From Fodinibius salicampi (GTDB taxonomy: Bacteria; Bacteroidota; Rhodothermia; Balneolales; Balneolaceae), in contig NZ_BAABRS010000001.1 of NCBI RefSeq assembly GCF_039545095.1, positions 868,001-932,000 of the forward strand: a stretch of DNA of 64,000 nucleotides, given 5' to 3'. Shown here in pieces: positions 27,296-38,951 of the stretch. Position 1 is the first letter of the stretch, and each line of letters opens with the position of its first letter. The notes beneath the pieces were generated by a model. The model was given only the letters and a program-made list of their open reading frames with translations, made no database searches and was not told the origin of the DNA. Both the position numbers and the translations under genes were made by a program.

Positions 27296-29146
27296 TTAAC
27301 GTTTACAAAAAGCAATCTCATCATGAAGATTACTGGGTATTTCATCCCCGTCTGTCAGCAATGCCTGAACACTCATGTTTACTATATAGGCACAAGGTTC
27401 TAAATCTGAGATCGAAAAATCAGGCGTTGCGTTCCCATGAAGATCGCCTGGTGTCGATGCTGAAGGCAGCGTAAAGCTATATGGTCCACCGGGTCCGGTC
27501 ATATTAATATTTACAGAACCCAAGTTAGGATGAGCTGCAGTAAATACGACATCCAGATCTGTAGTAATCCCCAAACATCCACTGCCCTGTAGTTGGGCAA
27601 TATCAACCATAGCCACAGCTAATTGATTATTTCTGATATTTGAATACCAATCGGGATGACTATTAATACCATCATATAGCCTATTATTTACAGCAATATG
27701 TTCGCACATTCCTGCAATTTCCTCAGTTCCAGAACTACCCTTTTCTCGTACAATCATCCGAATAGCAAAATGTTTATTTTCTACTAACGGATGAACGTCT
27801 GTTACTGAATTACCAGTAACCAATCCTGTTAGGTCGGCATCAGGAAAAGAAGCAATGCTGCGGCTATTCAGTGATATTAAATCATGATTAGGTGTAAAAA
27901 AGCCAGTACTGCTTAAAGGATTATCACTTTCCTGCGGCACCTGTATCCAATCGATACCGCTATCAGTGATTATATTTACCGGTATTTCGTCAGGTTGATT
28001 AGGCTTTATTACATAATCCACATTTTCAATTGGATTAGGGCTTGTTGCTGGAAAATCAGGATTAGCTCTTTGTAAAGTTCCGATTTTTAATTTCCCTAAC
28101 TGGCTTTCCAGAACGGGTTCCCATCCACTACCGGTGAGATTACCGGAAGCATCTGTTTCATGTACTTCGAATCGATATTCCAGATCACTTCCATTTAATT
28201 TCTTGGATAGCGTTCCATTTAACCGAAGATTTCGGAAAAATGCCCTTTCTGAACCTATAGTAAGGCCAGTTCCTGAATCTATATCATCTTCATAGTCATA
28301 ACTTCCTATATGGCTAAAGAATGGAAGAACATCGTTTGGTCCGGGTTCGGGCGGTACATCCGACAGACACAAAGTCGTACAGAAACAGGCCCCTACGTTT
28401 TCCCGGTCCGAATCTCTTCCTCTGGAAGGATCCTCATTTAATAGCGGAGCTCCCAAAGTAGTTTCCACTCTAAAATAAAGATCGGGTCCTCCGATTAGTT
28501 CAACATCTATAAAAGTACCCGGAATAAAATCGTTTTCAGAATAGTAAATACGGAAATGACCTGAAGAATCAGTGATAGCTGTACCGAGTTCATCGTCTTG
28601 TAGCCAATCTCTATCAAAAGCCATTACCCGAACTTTGGGGATTGGTTCCTCATTTTCACAATCTACTACTTGCCCACAAATAACATAGGCTCCCAGTAAA
28701 TCCCGGATTTTACACCAAAAACGTTGAGAAATACAGTGCTCCCAGGCAGCAATAGCTCCTTCTTCAGCTTTCTTCCATTGAGGTTGAAGGGTGGTAATTG
28801 TAAATTGTATAGGTTCTACATTTTCAGCCCGTTCCTCTTGGCCGGGTGCCTTTTCAATATATATATCAATTTCGAAGGCTTCTCCTTCATATTCCTGATC
28901 ATCACCCAATTCAAATTGAAAACTACCATCTTCCCTGGTTTGGGTCTCATCAATTAGCCATTCTTCCTTATCTGCAATTTCTTTCTCGGATAGAATGGCA
29001 AATGTATTCTTAGGATTAGCAGTAGCTAATACGGTCTCCCGCTGATCTTTTCGAAGCCTATACAGCTTAACTTGGACATTCGAAAGATCTTCTTCACAAT
29101 TCGCACACAGACGTCCACAAAGGGTTCCTTTAAAAATATAACTCAT
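27296..29146 (-). CDS. Large cysteine-rich protein with transthyretin-like domains, unknown function
   Basis: A 616-residue protein with no signal peptide or membrane segment. The N-terminus is Cys-rich (CGRLCANCEEDL). Two carboxypeptidase-regulatory/transthyretin-like beta domains are visible (about 5-115 and 155-250; QTREDGSFQFEL, GHFRIYYSENDF), with CISQRFWCKIRDL between them. Then come GGPDLYFRVET, GACFCTTLCLS, a beta-rich middle part (HIGSYDYEDDIDSGTGLTIG) and a fourth beta region. I recall similar unnamed proteins in Bacteroidota and Planctomycetota, but no function. A degenerate copy of the local ECF promoter motif lies 107 nt upstream, hinting at co-regulation with the sigma-factor operon. 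Confidence 0.75.
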   Translation of the reverse strand: MSYIFKGTLCGRLCANCEEDLSNVQVKLYRLRKDQRETVLATANPKNTFAILSEKEIADKEEWLIDETQTREDGSFQFELGDDQEYEGEAFEIDIYIEKAPGQEERAENVEPIQFTITTLQPQWKKAEEGAIAAWEHCISQRFWCKIRDLLGAYVICGQVVDCENEEPIPKVRVMAFDRDWLQDDELGTAITDSSGHFRIYYSENDFIPGTFIDVELIGGPDLYFRVETTLGAPLLNEDPSRGRDSDRENVGACFCTTLCLSDVPPEPGPNDVLPFFSHIGSYDYEDDIDSGTGLTIGSERAFFRNLRLNGTLSKKLNGSDLEYRFEVHETDASGNLTGSGWEPVLESQLGKLKIGTLQRANPDFPATSPNPIENVDYVIKPNQPDEIPVNIITDSGIDWIQVPQESDNPLSSTGFFTPNHDLISLNSRSIASFPDADLTGLVTGNSVTDVHPLVENKHFAIRMIVREKGSSGTEEIAGMCEHIAVNNRLYDGINSHPDWYSNIRNNQLAVAMVDIAQLQGSGCLGITTDLDVVFTAAHPNLGSVNINMTGPGGPYSFTLPSASTPGDLHGNATPDFSISDLEPCAYIVNMSVQALLTDGDEIPSNLHDEIAFCKR

Positions 29147-29253
29147 GATATGATCTCTCTTCTATTTTAATTAGTATTTATGGGGTAAATTATCTTTTTA
29201 AAAAGGTAAAATATCCCTTTCACGAGAATCCATTTACTACCCGACATTAGTAA

Positions 29254-29287
29254 GATCGTTTTAAGCACCAATCCTTACATTTTTTTT
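29254..29287 (-). promoter_or_regulatory. Degenerate ECF-type promoter candidate upstream of the 616-residue protein gene
   Basis: On the minus strand an A8 tract (29280-29287) is followed by TGTAAGG (29273-29279), then 15 nt and GATC (29254-29257). The A-tract, the TGTAA and ATTGG bases and the 15-nt spacing agree with the two stronger copies at 30361-30400 and 34002-34037, while the -10 box deviates from CGTC. Confidence 0.4.
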
Positions 29288-29376
29288 GAGTTTTTTTAAA
29301 AAAAGTGTTTAAGGATAAGAATTATTCTTTTGGTTCTCTCTTTCTGATAAACTATTCGTTCCTATTTATTCAAACA

Positions 29377-29412
29377 TAAAAAAAGGGTCCGCAACTGATG
29401 TTGCGGACCCTT
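29377..29412 (-). terminator. Strong intrinsic terminator of the DUF4382 lipoprotein gene
   Basis: A 13-bp perfect stem (29383-29395 with 29400-29412) closes a four-base loop. On the minus strand the stem is followed by a run of T residues (complement of the A-run beginning at 29378). It lies about 50 nt past the minus-strand stop at 29464. Confidence 0.92.
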
Positions 29413-29463
29413 GCCCTAAAGAAGCAGTAACATCATATAGAAGTACTGCTTCTGACTTGAAGT

Positions 29464-30303
29464 CTACTGCTGATTTAGCTCAACAGTTCCTAAGTCATTG
29501 GATTGCCCTATTGTAACGCTCACGTCTTCCACTGTTTCAGATTGATAGTCATCATTTCTGGGGTCAATAGACACGTCGTAACTTCCTTCTTCAAGTCCAA
29601 TAATCTTGAAATCGCCGCTTGTCGTATCCGCAATAGTTGAAGCAAGTGTATCAGGTTCTGTTGCATCTACATCGTCTATAGCATAAACTACGGGTTGTGC
29701 TTCGGCAGGATCTACGACTCCTTCAATGTTACCAGTAATAGCTTTCTCTTTTGCCTTAATAACGGGCTTCAAGAGGTATTTAACGGCATCACCAGGAGGG
29801 CCTGCAGCGACAACAGAACGGCTGGCATCAAAGTCCAGCAGAAGTACATATTCAATATCAGGTTCAATTTCGGCATCAATATTGAGTTTAATACCAGTCT
29901 GAGGCCCACTTGGAACCTTCATGTCATGTACCTCACCACCTACTTCTACACTATGTCCGCCTTCGCTTAGTATAAGTCGAATTTGATTATACGTTCCGGG
30001 CTCCAGTTCTTTGGTACCAATTACTTCTGTAGCCCCGTTTGTTAGCTCCAGTAAATTATAACTCTGTTGGGGTTCATTCAGTACGATCCAGCCTTCTTCC
30101 TCATTTTCAGCATTATTCACTTCTACGCGTTCAATGAATACGTTTACTGCATCGGCCGAATCAATGGGAGCATCAGTCATCTCTACGGTCATCGTACCCA
30201 TGCTTCCGTCTGATCCTGTTCCACTGTTATCACATGCTGTAAAAAATACTGCTACTGCAAAAAATAGTACTAATGGTAGGGATAGTATCTTATTCTGTAA
30301 CAT
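29464..30303 (-). CDS. DUF4382 lipoprotein
   Basis: A 279-residue protein with a lipoprotein signal (hydrophobic 8-22, lipobox VFFTAC with Cys at about 24) and a Gly/Ser linker. The DUF4382 domain (about 36-190) contains MTVEMTDAPIDSADAVNVFI, YNLLELTNGA and KLNIDAEIEPDIEYVLLLDFD. A C-terminal transthyretin-like beta domain (about 193-278; DFKIIGLEEGSYDVSI) follows. The family is secreted and of unknown function. Directly upstream is a close match to the promoter element of the sigma-factor operon, so it is probably in the ECF regulon. It has its own terminator. Confidence 0.88.
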   Translation of the reverse strand: MLQNKILSLPLVLFFAVAVFFTACDNSGTGSDGSMGTMTVEMTDAPIDSADAVNVFIERVEVNNAENEEEGWIVLNEPQQSYNLLELTNGATEVIGTKELEPGTYNQIRLILSEGGHSVEVGGEVHDMKVPSGPQTGIKLNIDAEIEPDIEYVLLLDFDASRSVVAAGPPGDAVKYLLKPVIKAKEKAITGNIEGVVDPAEAQPVVYAIDDVDATEPDTLASTIADTTSGDFKIIGLEEGSYDVSIDPRNDDYQSETVEDVSVTIGQSNDLGTVELNQQ

Positions 30304-30360
30304 ATAATTGTTATTAATTTAAAATTGTTTAAATGGGGTTTTATCTCATTCTGTACATAA

Positions 30361-30400
30361 GACGACCGAAAATCCGAATGGTTACAAGTTTTTTTGAAAA
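30361..30400 (-). promoter_or_regulatory. ECF-type promoter upstream of the DUF4382 gene
   Basis: On the minus strand: an A-tract (30389-30395), TGTAACC as -35 (30380-30386), 15 nt, and CGTC as -10 (30361-30364), then TTATG. TGTAAC and CGTC are classical ECF boxes. The element is nearly identical, with the same spacing, to the one upstream of the ECF sigma gene at 34002-34037. The expected transcript start lies about 50 nt before the ATG. Confidence 0.72.
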
Positions 30401-30409
30401 AAACTTGTA
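30383..30409. repeat. 27-bp palindrome downstream of the sigma-factor operon
   Basis: Arms TACAAGTTTTTTT (30383-30395) and its exact complement (30397-30409) flank one G. It lies 26 nt past the last stop of the ECF operon (30435) and overlaps the -35 box and A-tract of the DUF4382 promoter. As RNA it could end the operon transcript; as DNA it may be incidental to the A-tract. Confidence 0.6.
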
Positions 30410-30434
30410 CTAAAGCGGGATTGATATAACACCC

Positions 30435-31361
30435 TTAATTGTTGCCATTATTCCCTCCGGGATTGCCATTTCCCCGGTTATTATTACCGCGATCTGGTCG
30501 GTTTTCCAACCCCTTCGGTATATTCCCTGGAGGGCCACCCCCAATATTGCCATTAAAAAGATTCTGTAATACCTGTTTTGCGGGGGTACCATTATCCATT
30601 TGCTGGGCAACACCTTCTATAATAGAGGCAGCAGGCAGCTGACTACGTTGTTGTCCCATCTTCATAGCCGAGGGAAGTTGCTGTAATTTATCGGCATCGA
30701 ATCCTCCTTTTAAAGCTCTGACAATAAAGGATGCAGAAACTTTCGGTTGATTAGCAGTAGTAGGTAAATCCGGGAGGATACTTACTGCAGTAATTAAGTC
30801 TCCGGGTGTACTTCTGGAAATAATTTCTTCTGAACCAATTTCATGAAAGATACTTTGCACATTATCCGAGGGAACATTTTGCACAAATGACTTGGAAGTC
30901 GCTTTGATCATTTCATTGCGAAAGCCGTTTTCCGACATTGATTGTCCACTCTGTTTCAGAAGGCCCTGTACTTCATTTCTGCCCATCCACGGATCTACTA
31001 CCTCTGCTGCCTGCCGCATGCCCTGTCCAATCCTATTCACAGCAGGAATAAGTCGTTCGCCTGGCACGCCCTTGGATAGACCTTCAAGAGCCTTCTCAAT
31101 AGCCAGTTGACCGGGTAAATTTTGTTCAGACAAACTCAGGGCCGATTTAAGGATTTGGCCGAGTTGTTCGTTACTGATTCCTTGACTTTGGGCTCGGTTT
31201 TGAAGCTCAGACAAAGTAACTTGCTCCATACCAGCAGCTTCAGCCCGCTCAACAAGTACAGACAGATCTGTATTCTGGGCATGTACCTTTTCCAAAGGCC
31301 ACAACCATAAACACATACTGCAGACAAATAATGATAGAAATAGAAGTTTAGAGTTTTTCAT
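30435..31361 (-). CDS. Secreted protein with Gly/Asn-rich tail, unknown function
   Basis: A 308-residue protein with a signal peptide (hydrophobic 5-24, cleavage near VHAQN). The body (30-265) is almost entirely helical with repeated short helices, for example LQNRAQSQGISNEQLGQIL. The last 40 residues are Gly/Asn/Pro-rich (GGGPPGNIPKG, RGNGNPGGNNGNN), a low-complexity tail seen in surface or matrix proteins. I do not recognise the family. It is the last gene of the ECF sigma operon, 16 nt after the barrel/CBM48 gene, so it is probably made with those envelope proteins. Confidence 0.72.
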   Translation of the reverse strand: MKNSKLLFLSLFVCSMCLWLWPLEKVHAQNTDLSVLVERAEAAGMEQVTLSELQNRAQSQGISNEQLGQILKSALSLSEQNLPGQLAIEKALEGLSKGVPGERLIPAVNRIGQGMRQAAEVVDPWMGRNEVQGLLKQSGQSMSENGFRNEMIKATSKSFVQNVPSDNVQSIFHEIGSEEIISRSTPGDLITAVSILPDLPTTANQPKVSASFIVRALKGGFDADKLQQLPSAMKMGQQRSQLPAASIIEGVAQQMDNGTPAKQVLQNLFNGNIGGGPPGNIPKGLENRPDRGNNNRGNGNPGGNNGNN

Positions 31362-31377
31362 AATTCTGATTGTTAAT

Positions 31378-32631
31378 TTATTCGACTAATAACATTGCAT
31401 TTTTACTGCCGAAACCATCATCTACAGTATAGACTTCATTTGAAAATTCAAGCCATTCTTCTGAATCTCCATGAATTTTTAGGACTTTGTACTCATAAGA
31501 ACCGACTTCAAGCCTTAGTTGGGCTGTGTAAATATTTTCAGATTGTTCTGTTAAAGGAATTCCATCTTTATCCCAGTTATTAAAGCTTCCCACTAGATAA
31601 AGCCGTCCCTGACCGGAATATCGTATTTGAACTCTCTGTTGCTTGTTATTTTTGTTCCACTCAGGCTTAATTTTGGTGCTCCCCCTGTTAAATTTAGGTT
31701 CAATACTAAAACGTACGCCCCCGGATACTTTATAATCATTGGAAGTATTTTCAGTATTCTCACTTATAAAGTATAGCGTTCCAACTCCTGCAAAAACTGA
31801 AAGCCGTCTACTGAGGGGAACAGTACCATCCACCCCGACCCGAACAATTCGATCTGTATTGGTTACTATTCTGGTAGAAGAACCGCCCCCAATGGGAGGA
31901 AAAGTATCTCCTCCATTACCATCGGTGACTGTCTGATCGAACTGGAATTGTTGCATGCTTCCAGTAACCGATATAGAAGTTCCGTTTCGAAAATGATATC
32001 CCGCTGAAGCCTGTGTGGTAAATCCTTCCCGAGGGTCCGCCAGTGTATTCAATGCACCATATATTCCTGCCCTCAGTCTCCACTGGTAACTGGGCCATGT
32101 TTCAAATTCCAAGCTATATAGATCCAGGCGATCCCTAGTCTGTTCTACCTCGTTAAAATTTTTGTAACTACGAAAATTAGGACCAATCTTGGCCCGAAAT
32201 AAGGAAAAGGGAGTAACAAACCATGTAAGTTTTGGCTGTATCCAAATAAGAGTACGACTATATTGATTTTGCATATAGCTGCCTCCGCTCTCGATCCCTA
32301 TATTAAACTTCTCTGAAAGACGATAGCTATATTCAAATAGACCAATCCCTCCCGTCCAACTGGATGCCTGTTCATTGAAAAAGGGCTCATAAACTAATCC
32401 CCCCGTTACAGAAATTGAATGTCCCTGTCCGTACCAAAACGATTGTCCAAGAAGAGAGGTAAAGTTATAGGCCGATTCTATGGAGGGATTCCATTCCCCC
32501 AAAAAAGGGTTTAAATAGCTGTTGGTAGAATACCCAACCCTGGAATCAAGAGATACAATAGTCCGCCCTTGTTGACTATATCCAGCTGATGTAATCAAAA
32601 GCAGGCACATGATTGTCAGGCTTAACCTCAT
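31378..32631 (-). CDS. Outer membrane beta-barrel protein with C-terminal glycogen-binding (CBM48-like) domain
   Basis: A 417-residue protein: signal peptide (about 1-19, cleavage near GYSQQ), roughly 300 residues of beta-strands with aromatic girdles (for example FWYGQGHSISVTGGLVYEPF), then an AMPK/isoamylase-type E-set domain of about 85 residues. That domain shows RLYLVGSFNNWDKDGIPL, GSYEYKVL and the closing VDDGFGSKNAMLLVE. The anti-sigma factor encoded just upstream ends with a sister domain. The ATG overlaps the anti-sigma stop by 4 nt. By inference the barrel shows the glycan-binding module on the envelope; ligand and function are unknown. Confidence 0.78.
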   Translation of the reverse strand: MRLSLTIMCLLLITSAGYSQQGRTIVSLDSRVGYSTNSYLNPFLGEWNPSIESAYNFTSLLGQSFWYGQGHSISVTGGLVYEPFFNEQASSWTGGIGLFEYSYRLSEKFNIGIESGGSYMQNQYSRTLIWIQPKLTWFVTPFSLFRAKIGPNFRSYKNFNEVEQTRDRLDLYSLEFETWPSYQWRLRAGIYGALNTLADPREGFTTQASAGYHFRNGTSISVTGSMQQFQFDQTVTDGNGGDTFPPIGGGSSTRIVTNTDRIVRVGVDGTVPLSRRLSVFAGVGTLYFISENTENTSNDYKVSGGVRFSIEPKFNRGSTKIKPEWNKNNKQQRVQIRYSGQGRLYLVGSFNNWDKDGIPLTEQSENIYTAQLRLEVGSYEYKVLKIHGDSEEWLEFSNEVYTVDDGFGSKNAMLLVE

Positions 32632-33353
32632 AAATAGATCACTGCATTTTTGTTTCCAAAACCATCATCGCGATGAACTGTAGCCAGTGGATCAGTAACC
32701 CACTGCTCATTGTTCTTCACAAACATATAATTATGTTCCCCTCTTGGCATGGATACGAGACCTGTCCAAACTTGCTCACCATTCACTTCCTGTTTTGTCA
32801 TTTCAACAGGTTCCCAATCGCTAAAATCGCCGGCAACGGCTACTGAATTAGCTTCTTCATCAATGTAGACGAATCGAAGCATTACTTCATCACCTTCAGA
32901 AGCAACCTGTTGTACCGAATCATTCAGATTGGTTATTTCCTCCGAGGCCAAGGTTTCACTGCTTCTTTCCATATTCTGAACCATATAGAGCGGGTAACTC
33001 AGAGATAATAATATCAACATAGCTACCGCAAATGCATACACCGGCCGCCACTGTATTTCCCGTGGTACCCATAAGTCGCGATACCAAGCTTTTAATCGTT
33101 CTAATAAACCGGGGGAACTCGCTTCTCCTTTTTGGACAACCTGCTCCATTACCCGATCCGAAAACCCCTCGGGAACCGTGTGTTCACGAACCTTGAAGGA
33201 GTTCCCCAGGAAAGCGTCATGCAGTTGTTGCTCAAAACGCAGCATAGACCGGAGTTCTTCATCCTCCGCAATCTCATGGAGAACTTTTTTTTCCTTTTCA
33301 GCAGATAATTCTCCGTCCAGATATTGCTGGAACAACTTTTCTTTGTTCGTCAT
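32628..33353 (-). CDS. Membrane anti-sigma factor with C-terminal glycogen-binding (CBM48-like) domain
   Basis: A 241-residue protein. The cytoplasmic N-domain (1-100) begins KLFQQYLDGELSAEKEKKVL, the usual start of anti-sigma domains that grip ECF factors, but has no zinc HCC motif. One membrane helix follows (about 105-124), a linker, and an extracytoplasmic AMPK1-CBM/CBM48-like domain (157-241): VAVAGDFSDWEPVEM, GEHNYMFVKNNEQWV, DDGFGNKNAVIYL. It lies 3 nt after the sigma gene and overlaps the barrel gene by 4 nt. The layout implies that the outer domain senses something, plausibly a glucan or glycan, and releases the sigma factor. The sensing role is inference. Confidence 0.82.
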   Translation of the reverse strand: MTNKEKLFQQYLDGELSAEKEKKVLHEIAEDEELRSMLRFEQQLHDAFLGNSFKVREHTVPEGFSDRVMEQVVQKGEASSPGLLERLKAWYRDLWVPREIQWRPVYAFAVAMLILLSLSYPLYMVQNMERSSETLASEEITNLNDSVQQVASEGDEVMLRFVYIDEEANSVAVAGDFSDWEPVEMTKQEVNGEQVWTGLVSMPRGEHNYMFVKNNEQWVTDPLATVHRDDGFGNKNAVIYL

Positions 33354-33356
33354 GGT

Positions 33357-33917
33357 TTAACTGTTTTGTTCTATAAATGCCTTTAATTCCTTCTTAGCCC
33401 GGTAAACCCTTACTTTTAAAGCACTTTGTGAAACATCTAGACGATTCGACATCGCTTTATAGGTCATACCAGACTCATATTTCATCAAAAAAGCTTCAGC
33501 ATAATCTTCATTAATCTCTTTAAGGGCTTGCTTTAACAAGGAAACCCATTGACTCTTTTCCATTTCCATATCTGGCGCCCCAAATGAATCCATTTGTTCT
33601 TCAAGATCACGATCTTCCATTTGACTAAACGACTTATTATGGCGCCGAATATTTTTCGCATAATCCCGGCAATGATTTTGGGCAATACTATACAACCACG
33701 AAGAAAATTTTGAGTCTCCGTTAAAGCTGGACAAACGCTCATAGGTTTTTACAAAAATTTCCTGAGCAAGCTCTTCTGCATCGTCTTCATGGTCTACAAA
33801 TCGATTCACTATATCAAAGACCAGCGGAGCAAAGCGATCTACCAACTCCCGATACCGATCCTTTTGTCCATTTAGGACCGCTTCCACTATCTGAAATTCT
33901 TCCTGATTATCTATCAT
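33357..33917 (-). CDS. ECF-type RNA polymerase sigma factor
   Basis: A 186-residue group IV sigma factor with regions 2 and 4 only. Region 2 has RFAPLVFDIVNRFVDHEDDA, EELAQEIFVKTYERL and SSWLYSIAQNHCRDYAKN. Region 4 has NEDYAEAFLMKYESGMTYKA-like residues and an HTH near ALKVRVYRAKKEL. It is first in an operon with its likely anti-sigma factor. The upstream site at 34002-34037 (TGTAACC-N15-CGTC) fits autoregulation, and the same element precedes the DUF4382 gene. Normal length. Confidence 0.93.
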   Translation of the reverse strand: MIDNQEEFQIVEAVLNGQKDRYRELVDRFAPLVFDIVNRFVDHEDDAEELAQEIFVKTYERLSSFNGDSKFSSWLYSIAQNHCRDYAKNIRRHNKSFSQMEDRDLEEQMDSFGAPDMEMEKSQWVSLLKQALKEINEDYAEAFLMKYESGMTYKAMSNRLDVSQSALKVRVYRAKKELKAFIEQNS

Positions 33918-34001
33918 CTGTAAAATCTAACTGCAGAAAATATATTTATCGCCCCTTTTTATCATTAGCTAAAGTACAGATAGTTTCCACTACATTCATA
34001 G

Positions 34002-34037
34002 GACGATTGAAATTACCAATGGTTACAAATTTTTTTT
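34002..34037 (-). promoter_or_regulatory. ECF-type promoter upstream of the sigma-factor operon
   Basis: On the minus strand: an A8 tract (34030-34037), TGTAACC (34021-34027), 15 nt, and CGTC (34002-34005), then CTATG. It ends 84 nt before the sigma gene start. Over 31 nt it shares most bases and the exact spacing with the element at 30361-30400, as expected for an autoregulated ECF factor. Confidence 0.72.
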
Positions 34038-34194
34038 AAAATTAAAGCCCTAAATAAGCATTAAGCTAACTTCTATGGTTCTTTAAGACATAACGTATTC
34101 TACCTTACGTACTTTTTGAAAGGACTTCATTTTACCTTACTTATATGTAGTTAGAATAAAAATAAGATTAATCTCAAATTTATTAAGCAGAACC

Positions 34195-35364
34195 TTGGAA
34201 AAGTCATTTGAAGATATACTTGGATCGCTAAGTAATATTCGGGAAAAGGCACAAGAACTTCGCGAGATTCTTTTGGCTAATCTTGTAATGGCCGGTGAAA
34301 TTCCGGCCCCTACCTTTGAAGAGGAAGAACGTATTGAATTCTTGATGAATCGATTCAAAGAGGCCGAAATTACCAAGAACTCCGTTGATGAGGTGGGAAA
34401 TGGTATTGGTATTATCGAAGGGAATATTAGTGAAGACAATATTTTAATAGTCGCCCATGCTGATACCGTATTCAATGCTAAAGTAGATCATACTATTCAA
34501 ATTCAACCAGAATCGGTAAGTGGTGCAGGTGTAGCTGATAATAGTTTGGGAATAGCTGTTCTGGCTACATTACCCATTATTCTGGAGAAAATGGACATAC
34601 AGCTTAACCATAATCTTATTTTAATGGGCGCCAGTCGTAGTCTTGGACGCGGTAATTTGGAGGGACTTCGCTTTTTTCTCTCTAACTTTAATCAGCCAAT
34701 AAAAGCAGGAATTGGTCTTGAAGGAGTAGAACTGGGACGTCTGAGTCATACTTCCATAGGCATGAAGCGAGGAGAAATAGTCTGCCGGGTTCCAGAAGAA
34801 TATGATTGGTCCCGCTTTGGAGATGCCAGTGCTATTCTAACGTTAAACGAAGTCATTAATCACATTAATGAACTGCGTCTGCCGCAGCGCCCCCGAACAA
34901 GTGTGGTTATGGGATCCATAGAAGGCGGAAGTTCGTTCAATACTACGGCCTTAAATGCAAAACTTCAGTTTGAAATCCGTTCTGAATCATCAGATATGGT
35001 TCAGGATCTACATCAATCGATGGAGGAAATCGTTTCCGAAGTCTCTTCCCGTAGTGGTGATACCATCAATCTGGATATATTTGCCCAGCGCGAGCCCGGC
35101 GGTATCTCATTTTCACACCCCTTGGTTCGCCGTACCCGCCGAATTATGGACCAACTTAAAATAAAACCGCGTCCAGGTCCAAGCACATCCGAACTCTCCG
35201 CTTTTATAGACAAAGATATTCCCGCTATCACATTAGGTCTAACCCACGGAGATAATATTCACGAAACAAATGAAAGTATAGAAATAGAGCCAATATACAC
35301 GGGGATTGCACAAATAATTGGCACACTTTTAGCAATTGACGGAGGTTACTGTGAAGAAGATTAA
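34195..35364 (+). CDS. M20-peptidase-like protein lacking the catalytic Glu pair
   Basis: A 389-residue protein with an M20 fold: AHADTVF (His88, Asp90), GAGVADNSLG (Asp115 as bridging ligand), a dimerisation domain in the middle, and a C-terminal His in GDNIHETNES. The segment where M20 enzymes carry the catalytic and metal-binding Glu-Glu reads MGASRSLGRGNLEGLRF (144-160), with no Glu pair. It may be inactive as a peptidase or have another chemistry. The start is TTG 34195. Its end overlaps gpgS by 14 nt, placing it in the glucosylglycerate operon. Role unknown. Confidence 0.78.
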   Translation: MEKSFEDILGSLSNIREKAQELREILLANLVMAGEIPAPTFEEEERIEFLMNRFKEAEITKNSVDEVGNGIGIIEGNISEDNILIVAHADTVFNAKVDHTIQIQPESVSGAGVADNSLGIAVLATLPIILEKMDIQLNHNLILMGASRSLGRGNLEGLRFFLSNFNQPIKAGIGLEGVELGRLSHTSIGMKRGEIVCRVPEEYDWSRFGDASAILTLNEVINHINELRLPQRPRTSVVMGSIEGGSSFNTTALNAKLQFEIRSESSDMVQDLHQSMEEIVSEVSSRSGDTINLDIFAQREPGGISFSHPLVRRTRRIMDQLKIKPRPGPSTSELSAFIDKDIPAITLGLTHGDNIHETNESIEIEPIYTGIAQIIGTLLAIDGGYCEED

Positions 35365-36343
35365 AAAGTGGATTGACAAAAACACCTATCATCATTCTGA
35401 ATTCTGGGATCTAAAAAAACTTGTTGAAAAAAAACAAAAGAATGATCTGACTATCTCGCTTTGTCTGCCAACTCTTAATGAAGAAAAGACCATCGGTAAA
35501 GAGGTGGTTATTTTTAAATCAGAATTAGTAGACCGTTATCCCCTGCTGGATGAGATAGCGGTGATAGACTCCGGATCAGATGATAATACCCGGGAAATAG
35601 CAACTAATTTCGGAGCTGATGTTTACCTGGCCGATGATATCTTACCCGGGCTTGAAAAGAAAAAAGGCAAGGGAGAAAATCTCTGGAAGGCAATCTATCA
35701 ACTTAAAGGCGATATTATCGTATATGTAGATGCCGATATCAGTAATATTCATCCCCGCTTTGTCTATGGACTCGTGGCTCCTCTTATTCACCGGGAAGAG
35801 GTAAAGTATGTAAAAGCCTTTTACGACCGTCCCTTGGCTGTATCGGGCTCTGTACGACCTTCGGGAGGGGGACGCGTAACCGAAATTTTAATCCGCCCCC
35901 TATTCTCGCTCTATTTTCCTGAACTTACAGGCATTATTCAACCCCTGTCAGGAGAATATGCCGTTCGTCGAGAGGTACTTGAAAAAATAAACTTCCCTAT
36001 TGGTTATGGAGTAGAAACCTCGCACCTAATTGATGTATATACCAAGTATGGGCTGGATGCTTTTGCACAAACAGATCTGGACCAACGAATTCATGAAAAC
36101 AAGCCCACGCGTGCGTTGGGAAAAATGGCCTTTGGAATCCTCCAAACCTTCATTAAACGTGCTAAGGCGCTTGGTATAATAAAAGATATTGCAGACTTTG
36201 AAACTATTCTTCGGCAAACTCAGGCTAAAGACAATGTTTATGAACAGGCTGAGCTAAGCATTATGGAAGAAGAACGCCCTCCCATGATCGAGATTGAAGA
36301 ATACTGCACAAAGTTTAACCGAACTTTTGAGGACAATGAATAA
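35351..36343 (+). CDS. gpgS: Glucosyl-3-phosphoglycerate synthase (GT81)
   Basis: A 330-residue glycosyltransferase. The GGAGG ribosome binding site (35341-35345) sits 5 nt before GTG 35351, so I prefer this start to the TTG at 35336. Family blocks: SLCLPTLNEEKTIGKEV (UDP site), IDSGSDDNT, the metal-binding DAD (127-129) in VYVDADISN, SGSVRPSGGGRVTEILIRPL and IIQPLSGEYAVRRE. It transfers glucose from a nucleotide sugar to 3-phosphoglycerate, the first step to glucosylglycerate, an osmolyte of halophiles and nitrogen-starved cells. It overlaps the M20-like gene by 14 nt and the HAD gene by 8 nt. Confidence 0.9.
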   Translation: MKKIKKWIDKNTYHHSEFWDLKKLVEKKQKNDLTISLCLPTLNEEKTIGKEVVIFKSELVDRYPLLDEIAVIDSGSDDNTREIATNFGADVYLADDILPGLEKKKGKGENLWKAIYQLKGDIIVYVDADISNIHPRFVYGLVAPLIHREEVKYVKAFYDRPLAVSGSVRPSGGGRVTEILIRPLFSLYFPELTGIIQPLSGEYAVRREVLEKINFPIGYGVETSHLIDVYTKYGLDAFAQTDLDQRIHENKPTRALGKMAFGILQTFIKRAKALGIIKDIADFETILRQTQAKDNVYEQAELSIMEEERPPMIEIEEYCTKFNRTFEDNE

Positions 36344-37241
36344 GCAAAAGTTACTGGAACGTATTCAGGATCTCACCCATCCTCTTTCTCCAATATCCAT
36401 TGATCACCCCACCAAGCTGGATACTCTTACCGATATTCAATGCGTAGCCTTTGATTTTTATGGTACGATGTTTATTTCTTCTGTCGGTGATATTGGGGTG
36501 GACAAAGATCAGCAAGAGCATAGTGAGGCATTTTTTTCTGAATCACTTCGCGATACCGGCTTTGAAATTTTAAAAGATGAGGTTGGAGGCAGAGGAAATA
36601 AATTATTTGAAGAAACAATTGATAAGTCGGTCACTGCAGCTCAAAAAAAGGGGATTGATCATCCCGAACCTGATTTAAGAGCGGTCTGGTGGGATGTTTT
36701 AACCAAACTTACGGATGAGCAATTAATTGAAGGAGAACTCACAAAAGAAAGAGTTATTCAATTTGGGATTGAGTTCGAATTTAGAATCAATAACATCTGG
36801 CCTGTACCCAATCTGAAAACAGTACTAACCACTCTTCTCAATCAAGATATACGACTGGGAATCATTTCCAATTCTCAATACTATACTCCCCTTGCATTTG
36901 AAGCGTTTTATGAGCAATCTCCCGAGGAATTTGGTTTTGACCCCAACCTTATTACATGGTCGTACCAAGCACGGCTTAAAAAACCGTCGGTAGACTTTTA
37001 CAAACAATTTGCAAAGACCCTAACGCAAGAGAACCTGATATCTGAGGAGGTCCTTTATGTGGGTAATGATATCCGCAAAGATATTGCACCGGCGAAAAGT
37101 CTTGGAATGAAAACGGCACTCTACGTAGGGGATAAACGATCTATTCGGCATAAACCCGGTGATATTGAGAAAGAAGCATATAAACCAGACCTCATTATTG
37201 ATGATCTAACACAGCTAACCAATTGTATTTCAGCTGGTTAA
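36336..37241 (+). CDS. HAD-superfamily hydrolase, candidate glucosyl-3-phosphoglycerate phosphatase
   Basis: A 301-residue protein. ATG 36336 is preceded by GAGG and overlaps gpgS by 8 nt; the frame is open further up, but those codons lie inside gpgS. HAD motifs: Asp40 in FDFYGTM, Ser in IISNSQYY, Lys in RLKKPSVDFY, and YVGNDIRKDI with the metal Asp. At Asp+2, where phosphatases usually have Asp, there is Tyr42, as in haloacid dehalogenases. Context argues for dephosphorylating the GpgS product, while the motif leaves doubt. It converges with the phosphorylase gene, overlapping its end by 12 nt. Confidence 0.8.
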   Translation: MNKQKLLERIQDLTHPLSPISIDHPTKLDTLTDIQCVAFDFYGTMFISSVGDIGVDKDQQEHSEAFFSESLRDTGFEILKDEVGGRGNKLFEETIDKSVTAAQKKGIDHPEPDLRAVWWDVLTKLTDEQLIEGELTKERVIQFGIEFEFRINNIWPVPNLKTVLTTLLNQDIRLGIISNSQYYTPLAFEAFYEQSPEEFGFDPNLITWSYQARLKKPSVDFYKQFAKTLTQENLISEEVLYVGNDIRKDIAPAKSLGMKTALYVGDKRSIRHKPGDIEKEAYKPDLIIDDLTQLTNCISAG

Positions 37242-38951
37242 CCATAATGTTTCAAATGGATCTATGGTTAATTCGGGGTCAATTTCTCTCTTATTATCCG
37301 ACAACAGATCAGTTAATTCTATCTGATTAACCGCAAAGTCCGATAATTCATCGCTTTCTACAGAAGCCTGATTGTTCGTGAGGTTACTTATTACCAACAC
37401 CTTTTCAGTTTCAGACTCACGTATAAAGGCAAAAAGATCACTTTTTAAGGAAAGTACCTTTTGCTTTGCCGCCGGACTAAAAGCCGGATGTTCCTTTCGA
37501 ATACCAAGCACTCGCTTAAAGTAATTCAACACAATATGAGCAGTATTTTCAGTATCATCCAGTCGGTCTTTTAATTCCTGATAGGACCATTTCTTACGAT
37601 TTATTGATCGTTTTTCTCCATCTTCAAGGACTCCCCCCATATCATTTTTAGTAGCCACTAAATTATGAAAATAAATGCCCGGCACTCCCTGCAAACTCAA
37701 CATTATCACTTGTGAACACAGATAACGCTTAAGCTGTAAATCTGTATCTGTTATTCCCGGTTCTTCAAAGGCATCAAAATAGGTAATATTCAACTCATAA
37801 GGACTTTGCGAACCATCAGCATTCGTTTTATAGGATACAAAACCTCCTCGCTTTTTAGCGCTCTCTACGAGATATTTAAACTCTTCATCTGGCACAAGCC
37901 CCTCCAGCGGACGAACTCCGATACCATCATGAGAAGCCGTAAAATTAAAATAGGTGCATCCTTTTGGAGGAGCGGGCAGCTCTTTTGCCCAATCTGTTAA
38001 ATATTCCGCATTCTCGGTCAGTATGGCATGCAACAGCAGCGGAGGCAGACTAAACTGATAAATCATATGGGCCTCATCCCCCGATCCGAAATAACTTACA
38101 TTTTCATCAAAAGGAACATTCGTTTCTGTGATAAGCGTACGATCGGGATCTATAGAATCCACCATTGCCCTAAAAAGCTTAACAATGCGGTGGGTTTTGT
38201 CAAGGTGAATAGAATTCGTGCCAATTTCTTTCCACAGATAAGCAATGGCATCCAGTCGGATATACTGAATACCTTCCGAGAGGTAAAAGAGAAAGATATC
38301 AATATATTCGAGAAGCACTTCAGGATTTGAAAAATCCAAATCTATCTGGTCATCACTGAAGGTAGTCCATACATGCCGCAGTCCATTGCTGGTTTGTACT
38401 GCTGTCAATAAAGGAGAACTACGGGGACGCGTAACATCTGAGAGGTTAATATCCGGATCCACCTCAATGAAATATTCCTTACCGGGCTGTTTTCCCATCT
38501 GATAGTTTTCGAACCACTCACTGTAACGGGAAGTATGATTAATAACCAAATCGGCCATTAACTGGTATTTTTCTGACAAACGTTCAATATCCGACCATTG
38601 GCCCAGATCTTCTCGTACTTTTTTATAATCTATAACTGAAAACCCCTGATCCGAGGAGCTTGGGAAAAAGGGCAAAATATGAAGCGAAGTAATGACATTT
38701 CCCACATACTCCTCCAGAAAATTCTCCAGATGTTTTAATTTACGATTCTCATGACCATCAGTGTCAATGACATCTCCATAACTTATCAAAATAGTTTCCT
38801 TTTGATGCCATGGAGACCGTTCGGTTTCTTCTTCAGCCATACTAAACCCATAATGTTGGATACGATCCTGTATCTTTTCAATGAGTTCTGAAGCCGTTTC
38901 TTTGTCGTAAACTTCGGAGAGGTGTTTTAAAGCCTTTTCCTTAAAAATCAT
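37230..38951 (-). CDS. GH13_18 phosphorylase, probably glucosylglycerate phosphorylase
   Basis: A 573-residue cytoplasmic enzyme of the sucrose-phosphorylase subfamily. The catalytic residues are Asp234 (IRLDAIAYLWK), Glu276 (LITETNVP) and the transition-state Asp342 (ASHDGIGVRP). HILPFFPSSSDQGFSVIDY is the subfamily signature. It is longer than typical sucrose phosphorylases (about 490-500) and close to the glucosylglycerate phosphorylase branch. Its position next to gpgS supports phosphorolysis of glucosylglycerate to glucose 1-phosphate and glycerate. Alternatives are sucrose or glucosylglycerol phosphorylase. The opposite strand orientation would allow separate regulation of breakdown and synthesis. 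Confidence 0.82.
   Translation of the reverse strand: MIFKEKALKHLSEVYDKETASELIEKIQDRIQHYGFSMAEEETERSPWHQKETILISYGDVIDTDGHENRKLKHLENFLEEYVGNVITSLHILPFFPSSSDQGFSVIDYKKVREDLGQWSDIERLSEKYQLMADLVINHTSRYSEWFENYQMGKQPGKEYFIEVDPDINLSDVTRPRSSPLLTAVQTSNGLRHVWTTFSDDQIDLDFSNPEVLLEYIDIFLFYLSEGIQYIRLDAIAYLWKEIGTNSIHLDKTHRIVKLFRAMVDSIDPDRTLITETNVPFDENVSYFGSGDEAHMIYQFSLPPLLLHAILTENAEYLTDWAKELPAPPKGCTYFNFTASHDGIGVRPLEGLVPDEEFKYLVESAKKRGGFVSYKTNADGSQSPYELNITYFDAFEEPGITDTDLQLKRYLCSQVIMLSLQGVPGIYFHNLVATKNDMGGVLEDGEKRSINRKKWSYQELKDRLDDTENTAHIVLNYFKRVLGIRKEHPAFSPAAKQKVLSLKSDLFAFIRESETEKVLVISNLTNNQASVESDELSDFAVNQIELTDLLSDNKREIDPELTIDPFETLWLTS

Follow-up and report, generated by a model that had tools for sequence, protein, structure and literature searches.

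Two described extracytoplasmic function (ECF) sigma systems come closest to the one reported here. Promoters of Bacillus subtilis SigX carry TGTAAC at −35 and CGWC at −10, and one of them precedes the operon of SigX itself (PMC12153292); the ECF16 group, for example Brucella bcrS-abcS, has an autoregulated sigma/anti-sigma operon with few targets and (T/C)GTAAC-N17-CGAA promoters (PMC8315932). We analysed a stretch of 64,000 nucleotides (nt) of the Fodinibius salicampi genome (contig NZ_BAABRS010000001.1, positions 868,001 to 932,000; below, the window). On its minus strand lie, in this order, genes for an ECF sigma factor, a CBM48-type protein with a single transmembrane helix (the putative anti-sigma factor), secreted proteins of 417 and 308 amino acids (aa), a DUF4382 lipoprotein and a 616-aa protein (Table 1). 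A motif that we call P1 stands before the sigma gene and before the DUF4382 gene, and both of its boxes are those of SigX promoters; an earlier sequence-only reading of the window had named TGTAAC and CGTC as known ECF promoter boxes. From the comparisons below we consider it very probable that the cluster is an autoregulated ECF sigma/anti-sigma system of the envelope, in which P1 drives the sigma operon and the DUF4382 gene, and that a third site, before the 616-aa gene, belongs to another sigma factor.

The window sigma has regions 2 and 4 only, falls in the class of about 190 aa and scores 107.7 bits against TIGR02937 (cut-off 42.9); the site before its own operon has an AAC-type −35 and a CGT-type −10 box. 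It is not a SigX ortholog (PRK09640, 72 bits against a cut-off of 194), and both its CBM48-type putative anti-sigma and its targets differ from those of SigX. With ECF16 it shares the GTAAC −35 box, the autoregulated sigma/anti-sigma operon and the small number of targets, but the −10 box is CGTC, not CGAA, and the cluster has other contents. In the way it would work it also resembles FecI/FecR/FecA: the sigma gene shares its cluster with genes for a putative inner-membrane anti-sigma and for a secreted protein that may belong to the outer membrane. Membership of the FecI/FecR/FecA type was rejected, as no FecR, STN or TonB-receptor domain was found at E 0.1 in eight window proteins.

The sequence-only reading had described an A-tract, TGTAACC, 15 nt and CGTC before the sigma gene and before the DUF4382 gene. 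Both sites are there, and its remark that most of their bases agree is borne out by identity at 29 of 36 aligned nt. The exact string TGTAACC-N15-CGTC occurs three times in the 3.94 Mb genome, twice at the window sites; the third occurrence (C2:276446) lacks an A-tract. When the A-tract was included, only the two window sites matched without mismatch, and up to two mismatches gave 12 matches versus 7 for the reversed pattern. The core GTAAC-N16-CGTC, without mismatches, occurs exactly twice in the window. We also searched the genome with a sequence-only profile built from 48 sites of relatives, scoring 150 of 1696 first-look candidates, so that weak sites may have escaped us; in the underlying alignment the boxes are invariant by construction, since sites were picked through them. 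The site of the DUF4382 gene (40.8 bits) and that of the sigma operon (38.0) were followed by one outside the window and outside the training set (G000:C1:215653, 27.1 bits), with the next score at 16; the C2:276446 string is not among the ten hits. The genome-wide frequency of the motif thus does not refute the proposed promoter pair. The third strong site precedes the gene of a 288-aa lipoprotein-like protein, which matches MbnP below cut-off (first 260 of 288 residues used), and the arrangement of P1 with such a gene is repeated in two other genomes (G011 and G005). On the opposite strand, an open reading frame (ORF) for a Met-rich secreted protein diverges from this lipoprotein-like gene.

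We then compared the loci of relatives. Among 58 genomes, a search with the putative anti-sigma gave matches in 45. In 28 of these, the home genome among them, the match was long (E 3e-42 or better); in the remaining 17 there were weak matches only (best E 2.3e-6), which fell almost all in the CBM part. Searched against named genomes, the putative anti-sigma found one relative, 61% identical, in an uncultured Aliifodinibius sp. In the 27 relatives' loci compared, the sigma gene was present in 26 (the stretch of L072 ends before it), and most complete loci keep the gene order sigma, anti-sigma, 417-aa, 308-aa, DUF4382; some have extra DUF4382 or 308-aa copies, and the stretch of L052 has no DUF4382 gene. 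All 27 sigma genes (26 relatives and the window) have [AGT]GTAAC-N16-CGTC within 420 nt upstream, at 69–122 nt from the sigma match in 26 and at 370 nt in L056, where chance would give about 0.001 P1 per stretch (equal base frequencies assumed). P1 also lies upstream of 25 of the 29 DUF4382 matches in cluster loci, and a P1-like site stands before the 308-aa gene in L060 and L065 and before a similar gene in L118. The intergenic regions of related genomes support the shared promoter that had been read from the window alone.

P1 follows the cluster across genomes as well: the 28 genomes with the cluster hold 77 sites (27 have at least one; 2.75 per genome), the 30 without it only 12 (8 have at least one; 0.40 per genome; Mann-Whitney p 8.5e-9). 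Outside the clusters, we read 23 sites in 21 stretches (20 stretches, chosen by eye, were fetched); gene starts there and at the P2 sites described below (DUF4382, integrase and others) were taken from mechanical ORF picking. Nine precede DUF4382 genes (for eight, the position of the match confirms PF14321), three precede a second lipoprotein gene and one a 308-aa-like gene. Farther away, 13 of 296 genomes grouped in the phylum have the anti-sigma at E 1e-20. In G189, of the same class and another family, the one P1 of the stretch precedes a DUF4382 match that is situated upstream of sigma, and G300 has P1 in front of sigma and of DUF4382 as well as one site upstream of the 308-aa gene. The DUF4382 family is wider than P1, which was found at 7 of 29 DUF4382 loci in a scan with a fixed offset; such an offset fails for truncated stretches, and L272, whose P1 is seen on direct reading, is a false negative.

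Several results weigh against this picture. Over the 58 genomes P1 (89 sites) shows no excess over its reversed pattern, a rough control with 92 sites (55 in genomes with the cluster, 37 in those without); because of this, support for P1 rests on position, on the comparison of genomes with and without the cluster, and on the profile. Four of the 29 DUF4382 matches in cluster loci (two in L067, one each in L063 and L072) have no P1 within 420 nt, nor does the second DUF4382 gene of the home genome (C3:219843) have one; 10 of the 23 sites read outside clusters have no DUF4382, second-lipoprotein or 308-aa-type gene behind them; and the clusters of G075 and G125 have neither a DUF4382 match nor P1. 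In the putative anti-sigma no Pfam anti-sigma domain was found at E 0.1, and anti-sigma models matched only below cut-off (NF052375, 24.4 bits against 100; PRK13920, 19.4 against 225). We nevertheless regard a small autoregulated ECF regulon, as predicted here, as well supported on the level of sequence.

We infer that P1 is read by the window sigma. The genome has 20 sigma-like genes, and another of these sigma factors, or a repressor or activator, might use P1, which would then merely sit before the genes in question. We hold this to be very unlikely in view of the two-box ECF geometry with SigX-like boxes and of the way in which the motif tracks the cluster. Moreover, when up to 400 nt upstream of 19 sigma-like genes were examined (L154 gave no frame), P1 was found before one only, that of the window, with 0 mismatches, while the other 18 had at least three.

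The putative anti-sigma has the layout of a membrane anti-sigma factor: its gene adjoins that of sigma, and a helical, cytoplasmic N-terminal part is followed by one transmembrane helix (about residues 107–125) and a C-terminal CBM48/AMPK-type domain (about 160–241). This periplasmic domain is the most conserved part of the protein in 26 sequences, and it is clearly CBM48-type by fold. The structural model (predicted local distance difference test score 74 on average and more than 80 for residues 161 onward) has the glycogen-binding domains of AMPK beta as its matches (Foldseek best E 3.1e-7), and so does the sequence profile (AMPK/CBM48, best E 9.7e-5), and the family score of the domain is above its cut-off (Table 1). 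The glycan contacts of the AMPK domain, which we take to be two tryptophans, a lysine and an asparagine, are kept in part: W180, W218 and N236 are invariant in the alignment, whereas the lysine position holds an invariant methionine, Met210. Because of this substitution glycan binding is uncertain. The present domain further differs from AMPK beta in being part of a membrane-anchored putative anti-sigma. The 417-aa protein has a CBM48-type domain related to it (27–36% identity in cross-hits), which suggests that the two domains might share a ligand or contact each other.

Together, the parts point to the following mechanism. The membrane-anchored anti-sigma would hold the sigma factor, and its periplasmic CBM48-type domain, perhaps with that of the 417-aa protein, would sense a signal related to the envelope or to glycans, the glycan being the weakest step. 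Sigma released from the membrane would then take RNA polymerase to GTAAC-N16-CGTC promoters, namely that of its own operon, giving positive feedback, that of the DUF4382 lipoprotein gene and that of the one distant lipoprotein-like gene. What the sequence shows is the gene cluster with its domains, the conserved promoter-like motif and the small number of its strong sites; the anti-sigma role, the release at the membrane and the signal are inferred. P1 itself is, on its predicted −35 and −10 boxes, an ordinary ECF promoter shape joined to an unusual set of parts.

The sequence-only reading had placed a third, degenerate copy of the motif before the 616-residue protein gene and had tied three transcription units into one candidate regulon. 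The site reads TGTAAGGATTGGTGCTTAAAACGATCTTAC and has the common spacing, GTAA[C/G]-N17-[A/G]TC, and an A-rich upstream stretch, so that this part of the description stands. It is, however, an exact member of a different class, P2 (GTAAGGNNT-N13-RTCYTAC), with 13 sites in the home genome, and it is not among the ten P1 profile hits. P2 is exact also before homologs of the 616-aa gene in L048 and L050 and has two mismatches in L049. Over the 58 genomes P2 gave 238 hits versus 13 for the reversed pattern; six genomes have at least five sites but not the window cluster, and another 13 have the cluster but no P2 site. That all three sites are promoters of the window sigma, the third being merely degenerate, would fit the spacing and the A-rich stretch. 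Within family f1, moreover, P2 tends to occur together with the cluster (13 and 4 versus 6 and 12; Fisher p 0.018). This positive association counts against our separation of the two, and it arises because the home genus has both. Set against the exact P2 match, its decoupling from the cluster across genomes and its link to another sigma gene, a regulon of three promoters seems to us scarcely credible, and on the phylogenetic profile and the P1 profile search we rejected it.

The third site would thus be a promoter-like site of a second, ECF-like sigma factor with a regulon of its own. The home copy of this sigma gene (G000:C3:501359-501901) scores 44.7 bits against TIGR02937 (cut-off 42.9), with Pfam region 2 below cut-off. 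Among the 30 best-matching sigma loci, 29 had enough sequence around the gene; in 26 of them GTAAGG is no more than 30 nt from the sigma stop codon, 16 have an exact P2 there, and the home copy has a near match. The gene behind this site encodes TPR repeats and has a weak anti-sigma match. Matches to this sigma occur, with paralogs, in 57 of the 58 genomes, while exact P2 is confined to family f1, so that elsewhere the motif has drifted or the sigma has a different role.

Our reading of P2 sites covered the home genome and part of the sites listed for three others (G002, G003 and G004). For 48 of the 52 exact sites an ORF on the same strand was picked no farther than 250 nt away, the median distance being 38.5 nt; one site, at G000:C3:122705-122734 (L129), has no plausible same-strand gene downstream. 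A family scan covered 44 of the 48 downstream proteins (L129, L167, L181 and the 616-aa protein were left out), and 25 of 35 families were listed. P2 is thereby a common promoter-like element before genes of DNA uptake and processing: in the home genome ssb, comEC, radC and a gene assigned to the comF family by sub-cut-off matches, and in the three others recA (in two of them, 178 and 260 nt away), a gene for a RecN-like protein (named by eye or by a general domain), one for a ComEA-like helix-hairpin-helix protein, and again ssb and radC. The home list further includes two HU-like genes, GIY-YIG-like, four-helix-bundle and trypsin-like (by eye) genes and the 616-aa gene. Also on it are the one integron integrase of the genome that exceeds the TIGR02249 cut-off (450 bits; L134, G000:C5:193403-194341) and an N-terminal integrase fragment (L127, G000:C1:699805-700077). 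Further integrases, RAYT-like transposases (by eye) and a TPR/anti-sigma-like gene stand behind P2 in the other genomes. Four integrase stretches gave no match in Rfam, to attC or otherwise, a result of little weight, since the presence of an attC family in Rfam was not verified.

Competence sigma regulons, for example those of ComX/SigX in streptococci, offer a parallel. There, as with P2, one sigma-type motif precedes genes of the kinds comEC, comF, ssb, radC, recA and ComEA-like; P2 differs in its ECF-like sigma, in belonging to another phylum and in having integron integrase, HU-like and GIY-YIG genes behind it as well. P2 looks like the promoter class of a competence-type sigma regulon, its main rival being a DNA-damage regulon. 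Since recA, recN, ssb and radC are behind P2, and GTAAG...CTTAC forms an imperfect inverted repeat, the element might be an operator of the LexA/SOS response or some other site of DNA-damage control. The comEC, comF-family and ComEA-like genes, to our knowledge, are not usual SOS genes, and P2 adjoins the sigma gene in most orthologs examined. For Balneolaeota, the phylum of the likely host, published work gives the LexA motif as a direct repeat, TTACACATATTTTWTACATA, and reports recA as a LexA target (PMC7739468). By-eye comparison with that consensus, with no scan for LexA boxes, finds P2, and likewise P1, unlike the repeat, and on this footing P2 as a LexA box was rejected (PMC7739468). A damage-response site in general remains unlikely in our judgement. 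We lean, with limited confidence, towards a competence sigma factor of Balneolaceae, ECF-like and with a promoter abutting its own stop codon, that would jointly switch on DNA uptake (comEC, comF, comEA-like), genes for exchange of strands and for repair (recA, ssb, radC and recN), and the integron integrase, apart from LexA.

In many members of the genus the spacer of the ssb P2 site is nearly constant (TTCCTCCRAAATATATC or TTGCTCCGAAATATATC; L125, L176, L180), unlike that of other P2 sites, and may perhaps hold a second, overlapping signal.

In the open-access literature we found no paper joining an ECF sigma factor, an anti-sigma and CBM48, none joining DUF4382 and a sigma factor, and, in titles and abstract openings, no description of the P1 or the P2 system. 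P1 would add an ECF regulon defined by sequence to a group for which regulatory data are scarce, and the putative anti-sigma brings with it a periplasmic domain of glycogen-binding fold. With the third site reassigned, a second regulon comes into view, larger than the first and the more interesting lead. The competence reading of P2 predicts natural transformability under an ECF-like sigma, coupled to the integron integrase; if true, DNA capture and cassette recombination would form one programme under one ECF-type switch.

Table 1. Features of the sigma cluster, its promoter-like sites and the distant P1 target (window positions unless another contig is named; family cut-offs in brackets).
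Feature	Position	Strand	Evidence and remarks
P1, sigma operon	34002..34027	-	TGTAACC-N15-CGTC; A-tract about 34030-34037; 38.0 bits (family profile R1)
ECF sigma factor, 186 aa	33357..33917	-	Sigma70_r2 58.1 bits (24), Sigma70_r4_2 43.3 bits (25.7)
Putative anti-sigma factor, 241 aa	32628..33353	-	AMPK1_CBM 33.4 bits (26.8)
417-aa secreted protein	31378..32631	-	C-terminal CBM48-type domain, AMPK1_CBM 29.3 bits (26.8)
308-aa secreted protein	30435..31361	-	Conserved cluster member, no family match
P1, DUF4382 gene	30361..30386	-	TGTAACC-N15-CGTC; A-tract about 30389-30395; 40.8 bits (family profile R1)
DUF4382 lipoprotein, 279 aa	29464..30303	-	DUF4382 127.9 bits (25); lipobox-like FTAC by eye
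P2-class site before 616-aa gene	29250..29279	-	0 mismatches to P2 pattern; TGTAAGG-N16-RTCYTAC geometry
616-aa protein	27296..29146	-	Transthyretin-like stretch, TTR-52 36.9 bits (24.9); predicted P2 target, not P1
Third P1 target, 288-aa acidic lipoprotein-like gene (L251)	G000:C1:215728-216594		P1 37 nt upstream

The 308-aa protein had no match in Pfam (E 0.1), NCBIfam (E 0.1) or the PDB sequences (E 1). The 417-aa protein has an N-terminal hydrophobic stretch and is possibly of the outer-membrane type, to judge from a weak match only (OMP_TP0733, 14.3 bits, far below cut-off). The DUF4382 lipoprotein has a second, CarboxypepD_reg-like domain, below cut-off, and its predicted structure consists of beta-sandwich domains; PDB matches of this model were to cellulosome-scaffold, pilin and adhesin-like proteins, with template-modelling scores (by query length) of at most 0.28 among the 50 listed, and were not used to assign a function. 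Next to the system, at 35336-38951, lie a family 2 glycosyltransferase gene and, by eye, HAD-like and GH13-like genes, possibly of compatible-solute metabolism.

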